This document shows positions 44,497 through 53,486 of a stretch of 64,000 nt of DNA, in pieces. Source of the DNA: Dermatophagoides farinae (lineage: Eukaryota; Arthropoda; Arachnida; Sarcoptiformes; Pyroglyphidae); NCBI RefSeq assembly GCF_024713945.1, contig NC_134678.1:1736001-1800000 (forward strand). Reading direction: 5' to 3'. A program made the position numbers and the translations under genes. Position 1 is the first letter of the stretch. Each line of letters starts with the position of its first letter. The notes under the pieces were generated by a model that saw nothing but the letters and a program-made list of their open reading frames with translations, had not been told where the DNA came from and did no database searches.

Positions 44497-46120
44497 TTAT
44501 CCTTGATTCATGATTTGATGATGATAAATAAGGACACTTCGAGGTAGGAGGCTAATTTTAAATTTTGATGGCAATTCATAGCATTCATTATCGATGGATA
44601 TCCATCCAATATTTTCATCAACATTGCCAACATCATTATCATCATTATCAGGATCTTGAATGTTTTGTTCCGTTTGATCAACGACATGGTTGTCATCCCC
44701 ATCAATTTCTTTGATTGCATTTGGTCTGTGTTGTTTGATTTGATCGACCAATTTGAAATGCGAAACCACAGGTTTGTCATCGTCAAACATTGTTTGAATT
44801 CGACAGTCTTTAGTTTGGATCACTGTACCACTTTCGAGTGATTCGTTTCGATACATTCGAGCTCTAAATTTGGGATTTGATAGATTAATTTATCAATTTA
44901 ATTAGTAAATAAAATACCCACCCTTCTTGGATGAATGACATTCGATCCATATCTGCAGGATGAATGGTCAATTGTATTGAATTATTAAATGTATCCTCAA
45001 CTAAAATGTTTTTGGATTTGAGTTTAACTGTTTCCCATTTATCACAATCATCGTTTGTAGTATTTTTCATTGTTTCAATCAAACGTTTTTTAGCTTCAGC
45101 CACTGGATCAACAACAGGTGGTGTCTGTTTTGGTAATGGCATGAATGAATGCCACCAACGTTTATTAGTGGATTTTAATATTGGTTCCATTTCTGGTTTT
45201 GTTGAATCCGTTTCATATCTTTGAAAACATTTGGAACAACCTGTACATGGTTTTGTATATTCTATGGATATTTCTTCGTTATCATCCCATTGTGAAGCTA
45301 AATTTTTAAATGATTGGAAAAACATTGCCAAATATGGTTTCATTCGTTGTCCTAGATACCAATACTGGTCAACTTTACGAAGCACATCTTGTAATTGGCC
45401 AATATTCATGAATCCAATCGAATAAACAGGCCGACCACGTTCACCTTCGATTTTCATTACATCGACATTATTGAATGTTTGTCTTATGACAGCCATGGAA
45501 CTTTCGGCAAGAATTTTTGCTTTCTTATCTTTTCGGGGATCATAGATTTGTGAATTCAATTTATAAGATATAGAATTATTTTTTCCAATAGGCAGAATGC
45601 CAATTGGAAATCTTCGTATGGCATCCGATGAATCTGTTCGCCTTAATAAACCGGTGATTGCTTCATGAACGGTACCATCACCACCGGCCACAACAACACA
45701 ATCAGTATTATCCATAATTTCCATCAAGTCTTTCACTTGTCCTTCAGCTTCGATTATTACCAATGAAACTTTTAAGCCAGCCAAATGAAATAATGGAGCA
45801 CAATATTTTTCATAATCAGCTTTTCCTTTTCGTTTATTAGCCACTGGATTCAATAATACAGTCACATGACGAGCTGTTTCCATTGGACCAATTTTTTCTT
45901 CACCATATTTCTATAAATTACAGAATATAAAACAATGAATCAATTTTATCATCATCATAATTAACATTACCAAAGCTTCTTGACAATAGGCTTTCATTAA
46001 ATTGAATTCTAAATATTTTCCATATCCATAATGGGTTCCCCAAACAGTCAGACCGGTGAAAAAGATGCTCTTTTTCCAATGATTTCTCAGTGTTTGAAAT
46101 ATTTTACCGATTTTAGACAT
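44497..46120 (-). CDS. AGK: Acylglycerol kinase, mitochondrial (AGK/MuLK-like), 3 exons
   Basis: Coding exons on the minus strand are 46120-45971, 45910-44922 and 44863-44497, with GT-AG introns of 60 and 58 bp, giving about 501 residues. Seen: an N-terminal hydrophobic stretch at about residues 18-33. A diacylglycerol-kinase catalytic domain follows, with LLNPVANKRKG at about 69-79 and the nucleotide-binding GGDGT at about 126-130. A CxxCxxC cysteine cluster lies at about 272-278, and the C-terminal WISIDNECYELP...LLPR segment is typical of the family. Known of the family: AGK phosphorylates mono- and diacylglycerol to lysophosphatidic and phosphatidic acid, and in animals also serves the TIM22 carrier-import complex of the inner mitochondrial membrane. 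The product is longer than human AGK (422 residues); part of the excess is an acidic Asp/Asn-rich segment in exon 3. The start was chosen because exon 1 supplies the membrane segment and joins exon 2 in phase 0. The AKR gene ends 178 bp upstream on the same strand. Confidence 0.96.
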
Positions 46121-46173
46121 TTTTTTATTCGTTGCAAATGTTCAATCAAATAATTTTATTTCAATTGAATCAT

Positions 46174-46184
46174 TTTATTTTATT
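46174..46184 (-). promoter_or_regulatory. Candidate poly(A) signals of the aldo-keto reductase gene
   Basis: Two overlapping AATAAA hexamers on the minus strand (plus-strand TTTATT at 46174-46179 and 46179-46184) lie 115-125 bp beyond the AKR stop and about 55-65 bp before the AGK start. The AKR 3' end and the AGK promoter must therefore share the 178-bp spacer. Confidence 0.5.
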
Positions 46185-46298
46185 TTTTTTTTCAGAAAAA
46201 AAACTTCATACAAATTTAAAATTCGCGTCTTCATAACACATGTGTGTGTTTTGGTCATATGTTGCCAAAACAAAGGCACTATTCAAATAGTGGATGAC

Positions 46299-47417
46299 TC
46301 AAAGAATAGGTTCAGGATCCCAACAGAATTTATGATTCTCATTTAATCCATCAATTTGGGCCATATCTTCGATGGATAATTCGAAATCAAAAATTTGAAA
46401 ATTAGATTTCAATCTCTCAACTTTGGATGTTTTCGGTATGATGCCTAATTTTAAAAATAATGATTATTAGAATACGAAAATTACAAAATCGACAAAAATT
46501 AAACATACATAAATCATGTTGTAAAGCCCATTTGAGTAGAATTTGTGCAACAGTTTTCTCATATTTTTGGGCCATTTTTTTCAGCGTCAAATTTGTCGAT
46601 AAAATTGGCCAACCATCACGAGCTCCAAGTGATGAATAAGCTTGCACTATGATGGAATGTTTTTTACAAAAATCAATCAATTCTTTTGAATGAAACAATG
46701 GATGTACTTCAATCTACAAGATACAAATCAATAAACATATTAGATATCATTTGATTCATTGGTTCCAAAATCTTTACCTGATTAACAACGGGTTTGATTT
46801 TAGCATAACCGAAAAGTTCTTCTAAATGTCTTATAGTGTAATTAGAAACGCCAATATTTTTCACAATTCCTGCTTGCTGTAATTCTTCCAGATCTTGCCA
46901 ACTTCCACGACGATTTTCAGGATTTTTTGGACTTTTAGGTGTTGATCGACTACTACCAGGAAAATGTATCAATACAAGATCAATGTAGGATAATTTCAAA
47001 CGTTCAAGTGAATCCATAATAGCTTTTTTACATTTATCACGACCTTGATCAGCTGGACTTAATTTTGTCGTAATGAAAATATCATCTCTATTCAGATTGT
47101 ACGACGAAATATTGGAAATAATTTTTCCAATTATCGTTTCATTACGATAAACAGCGGCGGTATCTATTTTTAAATAACGAAAGGATTACATACACAAATT
47201 TTAGCTATACGAGATGTATACTAACCGATAAGCCTGTACCCGATTCGTAATGATTCGCCAATAATTTGGGACAATTCATGTTCATCTTTCATTAGATAGG
47301 TACCAACTATAGAAATAAAGAAAAAATTTACATAAAATCTGATTTTTTTTCTCATTCTCTTTCTCTCATACCTCCAATGATTGGAATTTTATTCCCATTG
47401 TTCATTTCAAATTTCAT
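46299..47417 (-). CDS. Aldo-keto reductase family protein, 5 exons
   Basis: Minus-strand exons are 47417-47372, 47306-47226, 47163-46778, 46713-46509 and 46444-46299. All four introns are 62-65 bp with GT-AG ends, giving 287 residues, normal for an AKR. Seen: the full catalytic tetrad Asp43, Tyr48 (GYRLIDTAAVYRNE), Lys76 (FITTKL) and His109 (LVLIHFPG). Later come the family motifs GIVKNIGVSNY, the PVVNQIEVHP junction across exons 3 and 4, and a C-terminal IPKTSKVERLKSN followed by FDFELSIED. Known of the family: NADPH-dependent reduction of aldehydes and ketones in a TIM barrel, usually cytosolic. The exact substrate cannot be told. The C-terminal substrate loop is short, ending CWDPEPIL. A second in-frame Met lies four codons in (47405-47403). 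Overlapping AATAAA signals on the minus strand lie about 115-125 bp past the stop, just ahead of AGK. Confidence 0.95.
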
Positions 47418-48492
47418 TGTGTTGTCAAAATTTTCAAAATTAAACGAAAAAAAAATTCTTATTGATCATGATCACTTGATTTATTCGAAAAAAAACAACT
47501 CAAAAATTCATAAATGACGTCACACAGAATTTTTTTTCAAAAAATGATTCGAATTTTTCCTGAATTTTCCACCTAAAGTAAAAATATCCAACAGAAGAAC
47601 GATTCCAACCGAATTTTGATTGTTTTTTTTTTGATTTGATCGATTTATTGGCCATAAAAATAAATGATTCGCCGCCTATTCAACAGACACAAACACAAAA
47701 AAAATGTTACACTTTTTTTCATTCTCAATGTAATTAAAATAAGCAAAAAAAACAACATCAAAATCACATGAATATAACGCGTCACCAATCTAATCCATGG
47801 ATCTATAATCACGGTTTTACACCTTTTGTTTGTGTGTGGATTAAAATTTCCTGATATTCAATCACTTTATTTTGTAGATGTAGACAAATTCTATATGTTA
47901 ATGATCCATACACTAATCCAACAATTGAAATCATAACAAATTTTCAATCAGCAGTTGAAATTTCTAAATTGTTAATTTTAATCATTGATTTATCATTTTT
48001 TCAGTTGTTCACATTTTCTTCTAAATAGATATTGAAAACAATCAAATGTTGTTTTTGTTTTACTATGACCACCATCATACCATTTTCATTTCATTGTTTC
48101 AAGTGTTTTGTTATATAAAACGAAACGGAAAAAAACCAAAAACACCGATTTGATGTGTCCAGTTTGGATAAAAATTTGATTGATTGAATATTTGCTAATT
48201 ATTGATAAATTGATACCAGTTTTTTGTTGTTGTTGTTGTTAAAAGAAAAATTCATTGGGTTGCGTTGATAATGTCGTTAACCGAAATTGCAACATCGAAA
48301 CCTTATTATTTGTTTGTGGAATGACGATTAAGATTAATCAAATTTTTTTTTATGTATTCTTTACGTATACTCTCTATCTCTTTCACAAAAAACATATAAA
48401 CGTCAATCAAATGTAAAAACATTAAGAAAAAAATCCATGTCTGTGGCAAAAAAAAAATGATTTTTTTCTGGTTTTTTTTTTGGTCTCCAACA
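47418..48492. other. Spacer between the aldo-keto reductase and secreted copy 1
   Basis: AT-rich, with no gene seen. It contains the AKR 5' flank, the opening block of duplication unit 1 at 47614 and, from about 47875, promoter-proximal sequence shared with copy 2. Confidence 0.5.
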
Positions 48493-48500
48493 TATATAAT
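48493..48500 (+). promoter_or_regulatory. TATA box of secreted-protein copy 1
   Basis: TATATAAT inside a block (CCAACxTATATAATGG...CCACC) that is conserved in the second copy at 50521-50528. It lies 112 bp before the start codon, so transcription probably begins near 48525 and the leader is about 80 nt. Confidence 0.6.
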
Positions 48501-48604
48501 GGCCACCTTTCAATTTGTCCTACCGTTATTATGTGATTTCATGTTTTAATCAATATAATTTTTTTTTGTGTATGATTGATTTTTTTCTGAATGATTCTCA
48601 AAAC

Positions 48605-49089
48605 ATGGCCATTCTATCACTTTTGGTCACATTTACTATCCTCACAATGACCATCATTCCAAATGATTCGAAGGCTGCACCACAATTTGCTATTCGAAAT
48701 AATGATGGTCAAGATCAATCACAAAGGTTGGTAGTGTCAATAAATAGTGTCCGTTTTGTTCTAACTTTTTTTTTATTTCACTGAATTATAGTGGTAATAA
48801 TCATCGCTTGTATCAATACTTGATATTGCGTCGTAAGATTCATTGTTCATTGAATCCAGAACTTTGTTCAACAGCTAACAAACATCATGGAAATAAAAAT
48901 GATTCACCAACCGTTAAGCCAGATGTTAATGTAATGCAATCGGTTGTTATGTTTGATATTTCGGTCATGATTCGTTATCCACCTTGTTGTATGAGCGGCA
49001 TACCAATCGGAAATTGCATCAATTGTAATGATAAAGGTGAAGATTTCAATCATCATTACATTGTTGATCCACATAATCCGGGCAGATAG
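48605..49089 (+). CDS. Small secreted six-cysteine protein, copy 1 (family unknown)
   Basis: Two exons, 48605-48726 and 48792-49089, with a 65-bp GT-AG intron (phase 2), encode 139 residues. Seen: a hydrophobic signal peptide at about residues 1-24, ending near NDSKA/APQ. The mature part holds six cysteines spaced C-x6-C ... CC-x8-C-x2-C at 59, 66, 106, 107, 116 and 119, enough for three disulfides. The C terminus is polar, ending DPHNPGR. I do not recognise the fold or family. An upstream in-frame ATG at 48572 would add 11 residues, but in copy 2 the matching ATG opens a frame that stops after six codons, so 48605 is preferred. The gene has its own TATA box and poly(A) signal. It differs from copy 2 at 8 of 139 residues. 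Secretion is inferred from the signal peptide; a role such as allergen, effector or antimicrobial would be speculation. Confidence 0.85.
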
Positions 49090-49293
49090 AATAGATGATA
49101 ATCATGGAATTTATCATTCAATTTTTTTTAAAAAATTCCGATTTTAAAAATCGTTACAAATTAAATTATGATTTTCCAAGCAAACAATAATCAACAATCA
49201 AGTATTATATTGAACTGTATTTCGATTCTTTTGATTTGTTCAATGTTAAACTTTATCCATAATTTTTTCTGTCTGATAAAATTTTTTTTAATG

Positions 49294-49299
49294 AATAAA
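49294..49299 (+). promoter_or_regulatory. Poly(A) signal of secreted-protein copy 1
   Basis: AATAAA about 205 bp after the stop, within ATGAATAAAAATCAACAACA. The same hexamer and context recur after copy 2. Confidence 0.6.
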
Positions 49300-49816
49300 A
49301 ATCAACAACACCGAAAAAAATTCATGATTGTTAATTTTATTTTGATTGTTTTTTTTGATTTGATCGATTTATTGATCAAATCAAAAAAAAAAAAAAAATG
49401 TACATGCATGTAAATGATTAAATCAAACAAAAAAAAACCCATTAGCATTGATCCGATACAAATTCCTTGATTCATTTTCAATGGCAATGTAAAGGTAATC
49501 GTTTTTTTCCAGGCCAGGTTTTTTTCCAAAATTTTCGAATATTAAATATTAGGTAGATGTAGTCAAATTCTATATGATAATGATCCATATCATTAATCAA
49601 ACACTTGAAATCATATCAAATTTTTAATCAGCAGTGATTTTCTAAATTGTTAATTTTAATCAATAATTTAACACTTTTTCGCTTGTTGATTGGAATTTTT
49701 TTTTCTCCCAAATAGATAATAGTAATCAATCAATCAATCAATCAAATGTTGTTTTTGTTTGCAACAAAATTTTGGTATACCACCATAATTCCATTATCAT
49801 TTCATTGTTTTGAGTG

Positions 49817-50110
49817 TTTATGTGTGTGTGTGTGTGCGTGGCAAATTTTAAGGTCAATATTTTTATTTATTATATATGCTAGTGTCATATGAAAAATTAA
49901 AAAACAACAACAACAACAAAAACAACAAAAATTTGACCTCGTGGCAAAAAAAAAAAAATAAGATCAATCAATGATTAAATTGTAATTACGAAACATCCAT
50001 TTTTGGTCAAACACACAGGCTAAATACACTTGAAATTTTTTTTTGTCGGCATAATAAAAGAATTCCTTGATAACAAATCAATGTTGAGATTTATGTGTGT
50101 GTGTGTGTGC
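49817..50110. repeat. Insertion bounded by 21-nt direct repeats in unit 2
   Basis: An identical 21-nt string, TTTA followed by eight TG units and C, occurs at 49817-49837 and 50090-50110. The segment between is absent from unit 1, where the flanking homology is nearly continuous. Either a microsatellite-mediated duplication or insertion in copy 2, or a loss from copy 1. No transposase or convincing terminal inverted repeat is visible. Confidence 0.6.
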
Positions 50111-50520
50111 ACAAATCTGTTATATAATGAAACAATGGTAACAAAAAACACCAATTCAATGTGCCCAATTGAATAAAAATTTGATTGATTGGATATTTAA
50201 GTAAATAAAGATGCTGATTATTGATAAATTGATACCAGTTTTTCTGTTGTTTTTTGTTGTTGTTGTTGTTGTTGTTAGAAGAAGAAGAATTCATACCATT
50301 TTTGGGTCGTTGATACTGTCGTTAACCGGAATTGCAATCTTGAAGCCTGATTATTTGTTGTTGGAATGGTGATTAAGATTAATCAAATTTTCTGTACGTT
50401 TACTCTATATATCTCTTTCTCATAAAAACATATATACGTCAATCAAATGTAAAAACATTGAGAAAAAAATCCATGTCTATGACATGGAACAATTTTTTTC
50501 TGGTTTTTTGGTTTCCAACG

Positions 50521-50528
50521 TATATAAT
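50521..50528 (+). promoter_or_regulatory. TATA box of secreted-protein copy 2
   Basis: TATATAAT at the position matching the copy 1 TATA box, 133 bp before the start codon. Confidence 0.6.
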
Positions 50529-50653
50529 GGGCCACCTATCAATATGTCTTATCGTTATTTTGTGATTTCATATTTTAATCGATATAATTTTTGCTTTCAT
50601 TTTTTGTGTATGATTGATTTTTTTTTCTGAATTATTTCTCAAAACAAACAATT

Positions 50654-51136
50654 ATGACCATTCTATCACTTTTGGTCACAATTACTATCATCACAATGAC
50701 CATCATTCCGAATGATTCGAAGGCTGCACCACAATTTGCTATTCGAAATAATGATGGTCAAGATCAATCACAAAGGTTGGTGATGTCGATAAAATATCCG
50801 TTTTGTTCTAACTTTTTTTTTATTTCACTGAATTATAGTGGTAATAATCATCGCTTGTATCAATACTTGATATTGCGTCGTAAGATTCATTGTTCATTGA
50901 ATCCAGAACTTTGTTCAACAGCTAACAAACAACATGGAAATAAAAATGATTCACCAACCGTTAAACCAGATGTAAATGTAATGCAATCGCTTGTTATGGT
51001 TGATATTCCGGTCATGATTCGTTATCCACCGTGTTGTATGAGCGGCATACCAATCGGAAATTGTATCAATTGTAATGATAAAGGTGAAGATTTCAATGAT
51101 CATTATATTGTTGATCCACATAATCCGGGCAGATAG
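50654..51136 (+). CDS. Small secreted six-cysteine protein, copy 2 (family unknown)
   Basis: Exons 50654-50775 and 50839-51136, joined as in copy 1, give 139 residues. The signal peptide and all six cysteines are retained. Differences from copy 1 by eye are A2T, F10I, L13I, H72Q, V92L, F95V, S98P and H128D. I count 8 replacement and 6 silent changes over 420 coding bases. The intron (50776-50838) is 63 bp, a multiple of three with no stop, so an unspliced message would encode a 160-residue variant with a 21-residue insert after residue 40, in the segment before the first mature cysteine. Splicing is preferred as the main form because donor, acceptor and flanking protein match copy 1, whose 65-bp intron would break the frame. 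Function unknown. Confidence 0.85.
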   Translation: MTILSLLVTITIITMTIIPNDSKAAPQFAIRNNDGQDQSQRLVMSIKYPFCSNFFFISLNYSGNNHRLYQYLILRRKIHCSLNPELCSTANKQHGNKNDSPTVKPDVNVMQSLVMVDIPVMIRYPPCCMSGIPIGNCINCNDKGEDFNDHYIVDPHNPGR

Positions 51137-51341
51137 AATAGATGATAATCATGGAATTTATCATTCAATTTTTTTTTTTAAAAAAATTCCGATTTTAAAA
51201 ATCGTTACAAATTAAATTATGATTTTCCAAACATACGATATTCAACAATCAAGTATTATATTGAACTGTATTTTTTTTTATTGTCGGTCAATCTTAAACC
51301 TTTTCCATATTTTTTTTATGTTTGATAGAATTTTTTTAATG

Positions 51342-51347
51342 AATAAA
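51342..51347 (+). promoter_or_regulatory. Poly(A) signal of secreted-protein copy 2
   Basis: AATAAA about 206 bp after the stop, in the same local sequence as in copy 1. The gene converges with p23, whose stop lies about 490 bp further on. Confidence 0.6.
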
Positions 51348-51839
51348 AATTAACAACACCGAAAAAAAATCCATTAAGTTTGTTAATTTTATTCAAAATC
51401 ATCAAACTTTTTTTATATATTGTTTGTTGTTGCAAATTTTCATCACACACACACACATACAAAAAGAGACAAATATTTCATCATGATCAACATTTAGTCC
51501 ACTGGGAACGAGGGTGGAGGTGTTGGTGGTGATGATGAAGGAAATTGCAAATTAAAAAGGTATATGAAAAAAGGTGTTTTCTGATTTTAGGGTTTATGTG
51601 TGTGTGTGTATATATGTGTGGGTAAGTGTATCTAGGTTTATAATTGTGGGTAGTTTTTTTTTGTTTTGTTTTAAATTTAAAAAAAAGAATGACAGAATAT
51701 TTGAAAATGAATATGAAACATTGATTCAGTGTCATTTGTTTTTTCCATAGTGGTATTACGAAAGAAAAAAAAAACAAGGAATAGAAAGGACATTATAACT
51801 GTTTCTGGTTCAAATGTGAATAGTAAATGGCCATCAACA

Positions 51840-52741
51840 CTATTCTTTATTAGAATTTTTGTTATCATCGCCATTCTTTTTAGCATCATCACCATCTTCT
51901 AGATCGGGAATATTTTCATCATCGCTATCTTTTTCATCCTGTAAAAAAGATTTTAGAAAGAGAAAAAAATTAGAATTTCAACAAACACCAAAATAAATCA
52001 ACATACATCTTCTAGATCGTCGAAATTTCCGCCCATGCCTGGCATACCCATTCCACCCATGCCTGGCATACCCATTCCACCCATTCCTGGCATGCCCATT
52101 CCACCCATTCCTGGCATACCGCCCATACCACCTCCTAGACCTCCCATTTGTCTCATCATCTAAAAAAAATAAAATGATTATTTTATTGTCTTTTGAACTA
52201 CAGTAATAACATTAGATATTTACATCTTCGAAATTTGTACCACCACCACCAGCTTCATCATCACTTTCATCTTCATCTTTCCATCGATTAAAATCAACTT
52301 TGAGCCAATGATATTTAGTATCTTCTTTCAACAAACGTTTCCAATATGGTCCGGATTCAGTTTTGATCAATACGAATTCCGCACCACGATCTCGATTGAT
52401 CCATTTTGATTCCTCTGGTTTAATTTCACCATACAAATTCAATATGGATTCATATTTCTGTTTATCTTTGGTTTCCGCTCTACAATAATCAATAATAATA
52501 ATGATGGTTAACAAATTGTTTCAAATCATCAATATAAATAAATACCTATAGATGATTTTATCCTTTTCAACCACCACTTCAGGATTGACTACATCTTGAA
52601 CTTGAAAATTCAAATAAACCAAATCTTTACGTTGGGCCCATTTTAATGGTGCTGGTCTGTAATTTAATAATATAAATAAATGTAGTATATGACAAATTTA
52701 AAAACAAAAAATTTTGACAGATTCACTTACATCGAAGTCAT
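51840..52741 (-). CDS. PTGES3: Hsp90 co-chaperone p23 / prostaglandin E synthase 3-like, 5 exons
   Basis: Minus-strand exons 52741-52731, 52656-52546, 52479-52224, 52159-52007 and 51938-51840, separated by GT-AG introns of 64-74 bp, give 209 residues. Seen: a CS (p23-like) domain at about residues 5-108, beginning [15 protein letters not shown] and ending in the p23 signature [13 protein letters not shown] (99-111). An acidic linker follows, then a 51-residue exon made of Gly-Met repeats (MGMPGMGG units), and an acidic tail [15 protein letters not shown] like that of animal p23. Known of the family: p23 binds ATP-bound Hsp90 in the cytosol, slows its ATPase and steadies client complexes. The Gly-Met block makes the protein longer than human p23 (160 residues) and recalls the GGM-rich tails of plant p23. 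The first exon codes only MTS and part of the next codon, but it is supported by a good GTAAGT donor. PTRH2 starts 770 bp away on the other strand. Confidence 0.95.
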
Positions 52742-53486
52742 GATGAATGGAAAAAATGGTTATTTTATGTTTGCTATATGAATACGATGTAAAATTATAA
52801 TGAGCTAGGCAAATGGTTGTTTTAGAAAAAAGCAGGTGACAAAAAGATTCGAAATCAAACAATACGAATGTTATGGAAAATGGCAAAGAAAATCGATTTT
52901 TATTAATTATCGTTGATAATGTATTCAGGGGTAATTGTGTGAACATGAAACAACGAAAGAACCAAAAAAAAAAAATATAAACTCAAGCACACACACACTC
53001 CTCGTGGTTTTTTTTCTAATATAATTGTCCGGCAAAATCAAACGCAAAAGATCCAACAATAAGAAAAAAAAAACACCAATGAACATGAATGAACTGAAGT
53101 GAAAATGTGCAGTGCTTCATATAATGATGATGATGATGATGATTGGATACAATATTGTGGCCACCACAATTCAGATTCAATAATCACATTCATAAAGTAT
53201 GTTACAAAAAATGACTCATCATCGTTTTGTGGATAATAATAATATTTTTAAAAGATGAATTCTCCATTTGATAATTAACTTTGAAATTATTAAAAAAAAA
53301 TTATGAGAATGGAAATTCTTTCCTCAAATAATACGATTAATGGAAAAAATAGAATTTCATGATGATATAACACAATAATATTATCACAGTTATCATGTCA
53401 TTTATGAGTGGTCATTGTATATGTATGATGAAATTCTTTTTTTTTTGATGATTTTTTTTCAAAATTTTCTGTTCCTGGATTATTAT
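52742..53486. other. Divergent p23/PTRH2 upstream region
   Basis: The two genes fire outward from this stretch. It has no clear TATA box and contains a (GAT)n run at about 53126-53142. By position it should hold both promoters, but no factor site can be named. Confidence 0.4.

Follow-up and report, generated by a model that had tools for sequence, protein, structure and literature searches.

What do two nearly identical short genes lying head to tail in the house dust mite Dermatophagoides farinae encode, and do they belong to a family that can be recognised? They lie in a 64,000-nucleotide stretch of the forward strand (positions 1,736,001 to 1,800,000 of contig NC_134678.1, assembly GCF_024713945.1), which we call the window and whose own numbering is used throughout; a first-pass annotation made from the letters of the window had described them as a young tandem duplication, at 47614-51395, of a secreted six-cysteine protein matching no recognised family. 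We find two intact gene copies whose products are identical at 131 of 139 residues, exactly the figure previously counted by eye, with all six cysteines kept and no insertions or deletions in the coding sequence. The pair appears to be real and probably encodes a secreted, disulfide-rich protein, for which no family was found in Pfam or among PDB sequences.

Both genes have two exons and are on the plus strand, with copy A occupying 48605-49089 and copy B 50654-51136, and their component features, in nucleotides (nt), are as follows.

48605-48726, plus strand: copy A exon 1, with the putative signal peptide and the start of the mature or pro part (translation)
48727-48791, plus strand: copy A predicted intron, 65 nt, GT-AG (splice signals and frame)
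48792-49089, plus strand: copy A exon 2, with all six cysteines and including the stop codon (translation)
50654-50775, plus strand: copy B exon 1 (translation)
50776-50838, plus strand: copy B predicted intron, 63 nt, in frame and stop-free
50839-51136, plus strand: copy B exon 2, with all six cysteines and including the stop codon (translation)
48493-48500, plus strand: TATATAAT, candidate TATA box of copy A, 112 nt before the ATG
50521-50528, plus strand: TATATAAT, candidate TATA box of copy B, 133 nt before the ATG
49294-49299, plus strand: AATAAA, candidate poly(A) signal of copy A
51342-51347, plus strand: AATAAA, candidate poly(A) signal of copy B

The annotated arrangement of two complete genes with one predicted intron each is borne out, and the predicted intron is supported, because the length of the copy A intron is not divisible by three, which disrupts the frame, and the exons are open and align without gaps. 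The copy B intron is in frame and contains no stop, which leaves an unspliced open reading frame (ORF) of 160 amino acids (aa) with one extra cysteine; no equivalent unspliced ORF is possible in copy A, where the intron interrupts the frame. The TATA box and poly(A) signal previously assigned to each gene are present, with TATATAAT and AATAAA occupying matching places in both copies, but these motifs carry little weight alone because both are frequent in the A/T-rich window (TATATAA occurs 30 times on the plus and 27 times on the minus strand, and AATAAA 142 times on the plus strand).

The spliced product of each copy is 139 aa long. Cysteines stand at residues 59, 66, 106, 107, 116 and 119 in both, in the annotated pattern of C-x6-C and CC-x8-C-x2-C, and 39 residues separate the second cysteine from the CC pair. 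Fourteen codons differ between the copies, six of them silently and eight with a change of amino acid (A2T, F10I, L13I, H72Q, V92L, F95V, S98P and H128D), and the differences fall at codon positions 1, 2 and 3 in 7, 0 and 7 cases respectively. By a simple Nei-Gojobori count the synonymous divergence (dS) is 0.072 and the nonsynonymous divergence (dN) 0.025, a dN/dS ratio of about 0.34. When copy A is aligned with copy B, none of 420 coding columns contains a gap, as compared with 416 of the 1124 upstream columns, 2 of the 65 intron columns and 7 of the 235 downstream columns, and the G+C fraction is 0.36 in the coding sequence against 0.288 in the window. Both copies are thus intact and apparently protein-coding.

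The product is probably secreted, as the first-pass annotation had it. Residues 1-18 are strongly hydrophobic, and the sequence SKA/AP, with cleavage at the slash, fits a signal cleavage site under the -3,-1 rule. The sole dibasic site in either copy is RRK at 54-56, and all of the cysteines lie downstream of it, such that residues 57-139 make up a computed 83 residues and 9.2 kDa with six cysteines. The order in which these parts follow one another, from signal peptide through cysteine-free stretch and RRK to the cysteines, is found in many processed secreted peptides. The five changes within 57-139 are all outside the two cysteine cassettes, although the contrast (0 of 22 against 5 of 61) is not significant (p = 0.32).

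Searches for relatives gave little. Neither protein, nor any of three fragments of copy A, has a Pfam-A match above the curated cutoff, and no PDB sequence matches copy A or a two-row profile of both copies at E <= 10; the absence of a recognised family therefore stands for Pfam and PDB sequences. A match below the cutoff to PF03689, a plant-virus coat domain, came from copy A and two of the fragments, with none from the third fragment or copy B; at 12.5-14.7 bits against a cutoff of 27.3 (E 0.031-0.15) we read it as chance. Searching the 22 contigs (62,435,336 bases) of the mite's own genome with exon 2, exon 1 and two exon 2 pieces recovered only the two copies, although only seeded candidates, two per query, were scored and distant relatives may be missed; within that limit, the tandem expansion invoked earlier goes no further than a pair. 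A looser pattern matched the genome 864 times forward and 838 times reverse, with 266 and 266 matches in controls, and was too unspecific to interpret.

Rfam returned nothing at gathering score within 46000-53000. Scans of viral and prokaryote contigs with two short peptides each produced 30 and 136 pattern matches, none confirmed by tblastn, and tblastn of plasmids with the 98-aa exon 2 product found nothing, all of which is expected because this is an animal gene. A literature search with four sequence fragments brought up no title about mites; the six letters NPELCS occur in papers on cone snails or their toxins, and we regard this too as chance. On cysteine spacing or layout we dropped elevenin, trissin, eclosion hormone, insulin-like peptides, 7B2 and Spaetzle, as well as TGF-beta, PDGF/VEGF, the ML domain and defensins.

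Two cysteine-rich classes deserve comparison. The inhibitor cystine knots (knottins) share the order C...C...CC...C...C and a first loop of six residues, but the order alone does not define membership, and the pair differs in the 39-residue loop before CC, in a last loop of two residues and in having no Pfam or PDB sequence match. The group 2 mite allergens (ML domain, PF02221) are likewise small secreted mite proteins with six cysteines; the pair has no PF02221 match, and the cysteine spacing differs.

These features can be assembled into a tandem-duplicated gene pair for a small, secreted, disulfide-bonded extracellular protein processed at RRK, a reading to which we give about an even chance. 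A tandem duplication in D. farinae would have produced the two intact copies, and the signal peptide (about residues 1-24) would be removed from each product. The cysteine-free stretch from 25 to about 56 would possibly be trimmed at Arg-Arg-Lys 54-56, leaving a domain of about 83 residues and 9.2 kDa with three disulfides that would act outside the cell as an inhibitor, an antimicrobial-type peptide or another binding protein. Two copies would probably raise the dosage of one product, with purifying selection, and perhaps gene conversion, holding them similar. Secretion, processing, disulfides and activity are what we infer from the sequence, and the effector, allergen or defence role proposed in the first-pass annotation may at most be inferred in the same way.

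Several observations weigh against this picture. The sequence singles out no specific target or tissue, and the difference between dN and dS, at p = 0.085, is suggestive only. The structure prediction that had been recommended was run, but AlphaFold with a two-sequence input gave a mean predicted local distance difference test (pLDDT) score of 36.5 and no usable model. Residues 25-56 are identical in the two copies (0 of 32 changed, against 5 of 83 in 57-139; p = 0.32), which if anything reverses what is usual for a fast-evolving pro-region. Finally, the C-terminus of both proteins is PGR, with no other Gly-basic pair in either, and this conserved ending would be more in keeping with a hormone.

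A structural or reproductive extracellular protein of the cuticle, egg shell or seminal fluid, with no part in signalling or defence, is a somewhat unlikely alternative. Tandem pairs are common among structural and reproductive genes, which is a point in its favour. In a study of D. pteronyssinus (PMC12105342), many small genes have no assigned function and poor homology, 157 of 521 small genes of up to about 100 aa are expressed at a higher level in males, and 24 putative antimicrobial peptide (AMP)-like genes are annotated as cysteine-rich peptides, 11 of them male-biased. The AMP-like and male-biased orphan genes resemble the pair in being small, poorly conserved or cysteine-rich and in the same genus, a likeness by description only, and at 139 aa the pair falls outside the size class counted there. 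Those data indicate that the genus has many small genes with little conservation and make a reproductive or defence role plausible, but they are silent on these two genes.

The pair could instead encode a hormone or neuropeptide precursor, which we consider unlikely. Cleavage at RRK would free a chain beginning at Ile57 and carrying the C-x6-C ring close to that end, and Pro-Gly-Arg at the other end would be converted to a Pro-amide; the position of the only dibasic site just ahead of the ring and the PGR ending of both copies agree with this, although a two-residue ending can arise by chance and neither product has a Pfam match to any hormone family. As described in PMC4237046, arthropod calcitonins have this general layout, with a cysteine ring close to the start of the chain and Pro-Gly-basic at the C-terminus, and under the predicted processing C59-C66 after RRK and the final PGR would fit it. 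The freed chain would not be short or have two ring cysteines only: it would have 83 residues, a ring of six residues and four extra cysteines, set against the about 30 residues of calcitonins (one locust example is of that size).

The six-residue ring also has a central N-P in common with the allatostatin C core CYFNPISCF, and in both a dibasic site lies ahead of the ring. The allatostatin C signature is a C-terminal ring of the form C-x-F-N-[AP]-x-[ST]-C-F. The ring of the pair, CSLNPELC, is internal at 59-66 of 139 residues, has neither the Phe at ring position 3 nor the final one, and is accompanied by four extra cysteines. Identity with allatostatin C is excluded, with the ring internal and the canonical core present elsewhere in the genome, on another contig (L015 1501-1527; 1 forward match, 0 reverse, controls 0).

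That one or both copies are non-coding, with chance frames in a duplicated stretch, is very improbable: the gene models are derived from sequence, short introns and A/T-rich motifs are easily found and dN and dS are separated only at p = 0.085, but the coding columns are free of gaps amid heavily gapped surroundings, the six cysteines and a hydrophobic start are kept, and coding G+C is raised above that of the window.

Returning to the secreted extracellular protein, a more specific proposal is that the pair founds a mite-specific family with a six-cysteine framework (C-x6-C, a 39-residue loop and CC-x8-C-x2-C) undescribed so far, released at RRK and perhaps ending in a Pro-amide, the coding regions being kept alike by gene conversion while the flanks drift; we put this forward tentatively and think it improbable as a whole. 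If expressed and secreted, the products could represent a protein of the body, the faeces, hormone signalling or reproduction that has gone unstudied in a major house dust mite; otherwise, the pair is one of many small orphan genes in the genus.

The extent and age of the duplication were examined from the following intervals.

47614-49340, plus strand: duplication unit copy A, comprising promoter region, gene and 3' region (self-BLAST, pairwise alignment and breakpoint sequences)
49341-51395, plus strand: duplication unit copy B (self-BLAST, pairwise alignment, breakpoint sequences and offsets)
48609-49160, plus strand: low-divergence core, 18 mismatches in 550 aligned columns, 3.3% (scan statistic)

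Self-BLAST and the breakpoint sequences agree with the limits annotated earlier, to within a few bases, the breakpoints being approximate as short A/T-rich similarity is shared there. The direct duplication is beyond chance, with a main self-BLAST block of 1285 columns at 85.7% identity (E printed as 0.0), and each unit starts with a 38-column stretch that is 94.7% alike. The copy B unit is a net 322 bases longer than that of copy A before the ATG. Upstream of copy B, at 49820-50130, there are roughly 300 extra bases with GT and AAC runs, which are missing from copy A.

Divergence is uneven along the units. Outside the core, the rest of the alignable region (47874-49320) differs at 15.0%, and a core like the one observed was reached in none of 2000 shuffles, a test that treats every column alike; since the core is mostly exon, constraint explains part of its low divergence. 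At silent sites, counted in the core as synonymous sites plus the intron and the first 91 bases past the stop, 12 of 241 sites differ in the core and 50 of 475 in five upstream blocks (p = 0.0115), a value that is indicative only because the upstream blocks and the 91-base stretch were picked after the alignment had been seen and estimated synonymous sites were mixed with raw columns. The blocks left out include 48040-48110 (60 matches, 11 mismatches), 49181-49220 (37 and 3) and 49221-49320 (74 and 23). The comparison suggests that the duplication is older than the coding identity implies and that gene conversion or non-coding constraint has acted over the core. The word 'young' is only partly apt, the core differing by 3% and the rest by 15%. 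With its conserved core between diverged flanks, the pair offers a modest opportunity to study gene conversion between genes in tandem.

Only one difference between the copies is present in the first 91 bases past the stop (49090-49180), and the distal 3' region is far more diverged; gene conversion may have covered this stretch, or it may have a regulatory function. The two copies are unlikely to be alleles placed side by side, because heterozygosity is reported as 0.52% for the published D. farinae assembly (PMC11074847).

The pair is preceded on the minus strand by genes for an acylglycerol kinase (PF00781, with PF19712 just above cutoff) and an aldo/keto reductase, and is followed on the plus strand by one for a PTH2 peptidyl-tRNA hydrolase. 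A minus-strand frame at 52212-52514 resembles the p23 co-chaperone, and Pfam gave no match to it at E <= 0.001. Elsewhere in the genome, one locus agrees with Der f 21 without a break over 111 residues, with two or three mismatches at the N-terminal edge of the alignments that we take to be expression tags, and a second shares 107 of 108 residues with Der f 2. A further frame (L018 1501-1830) is group 2 allergen-like and clearly distinct from Der f 2, scoring 102-108 bits against chains of Der p 2 and Der f 2.

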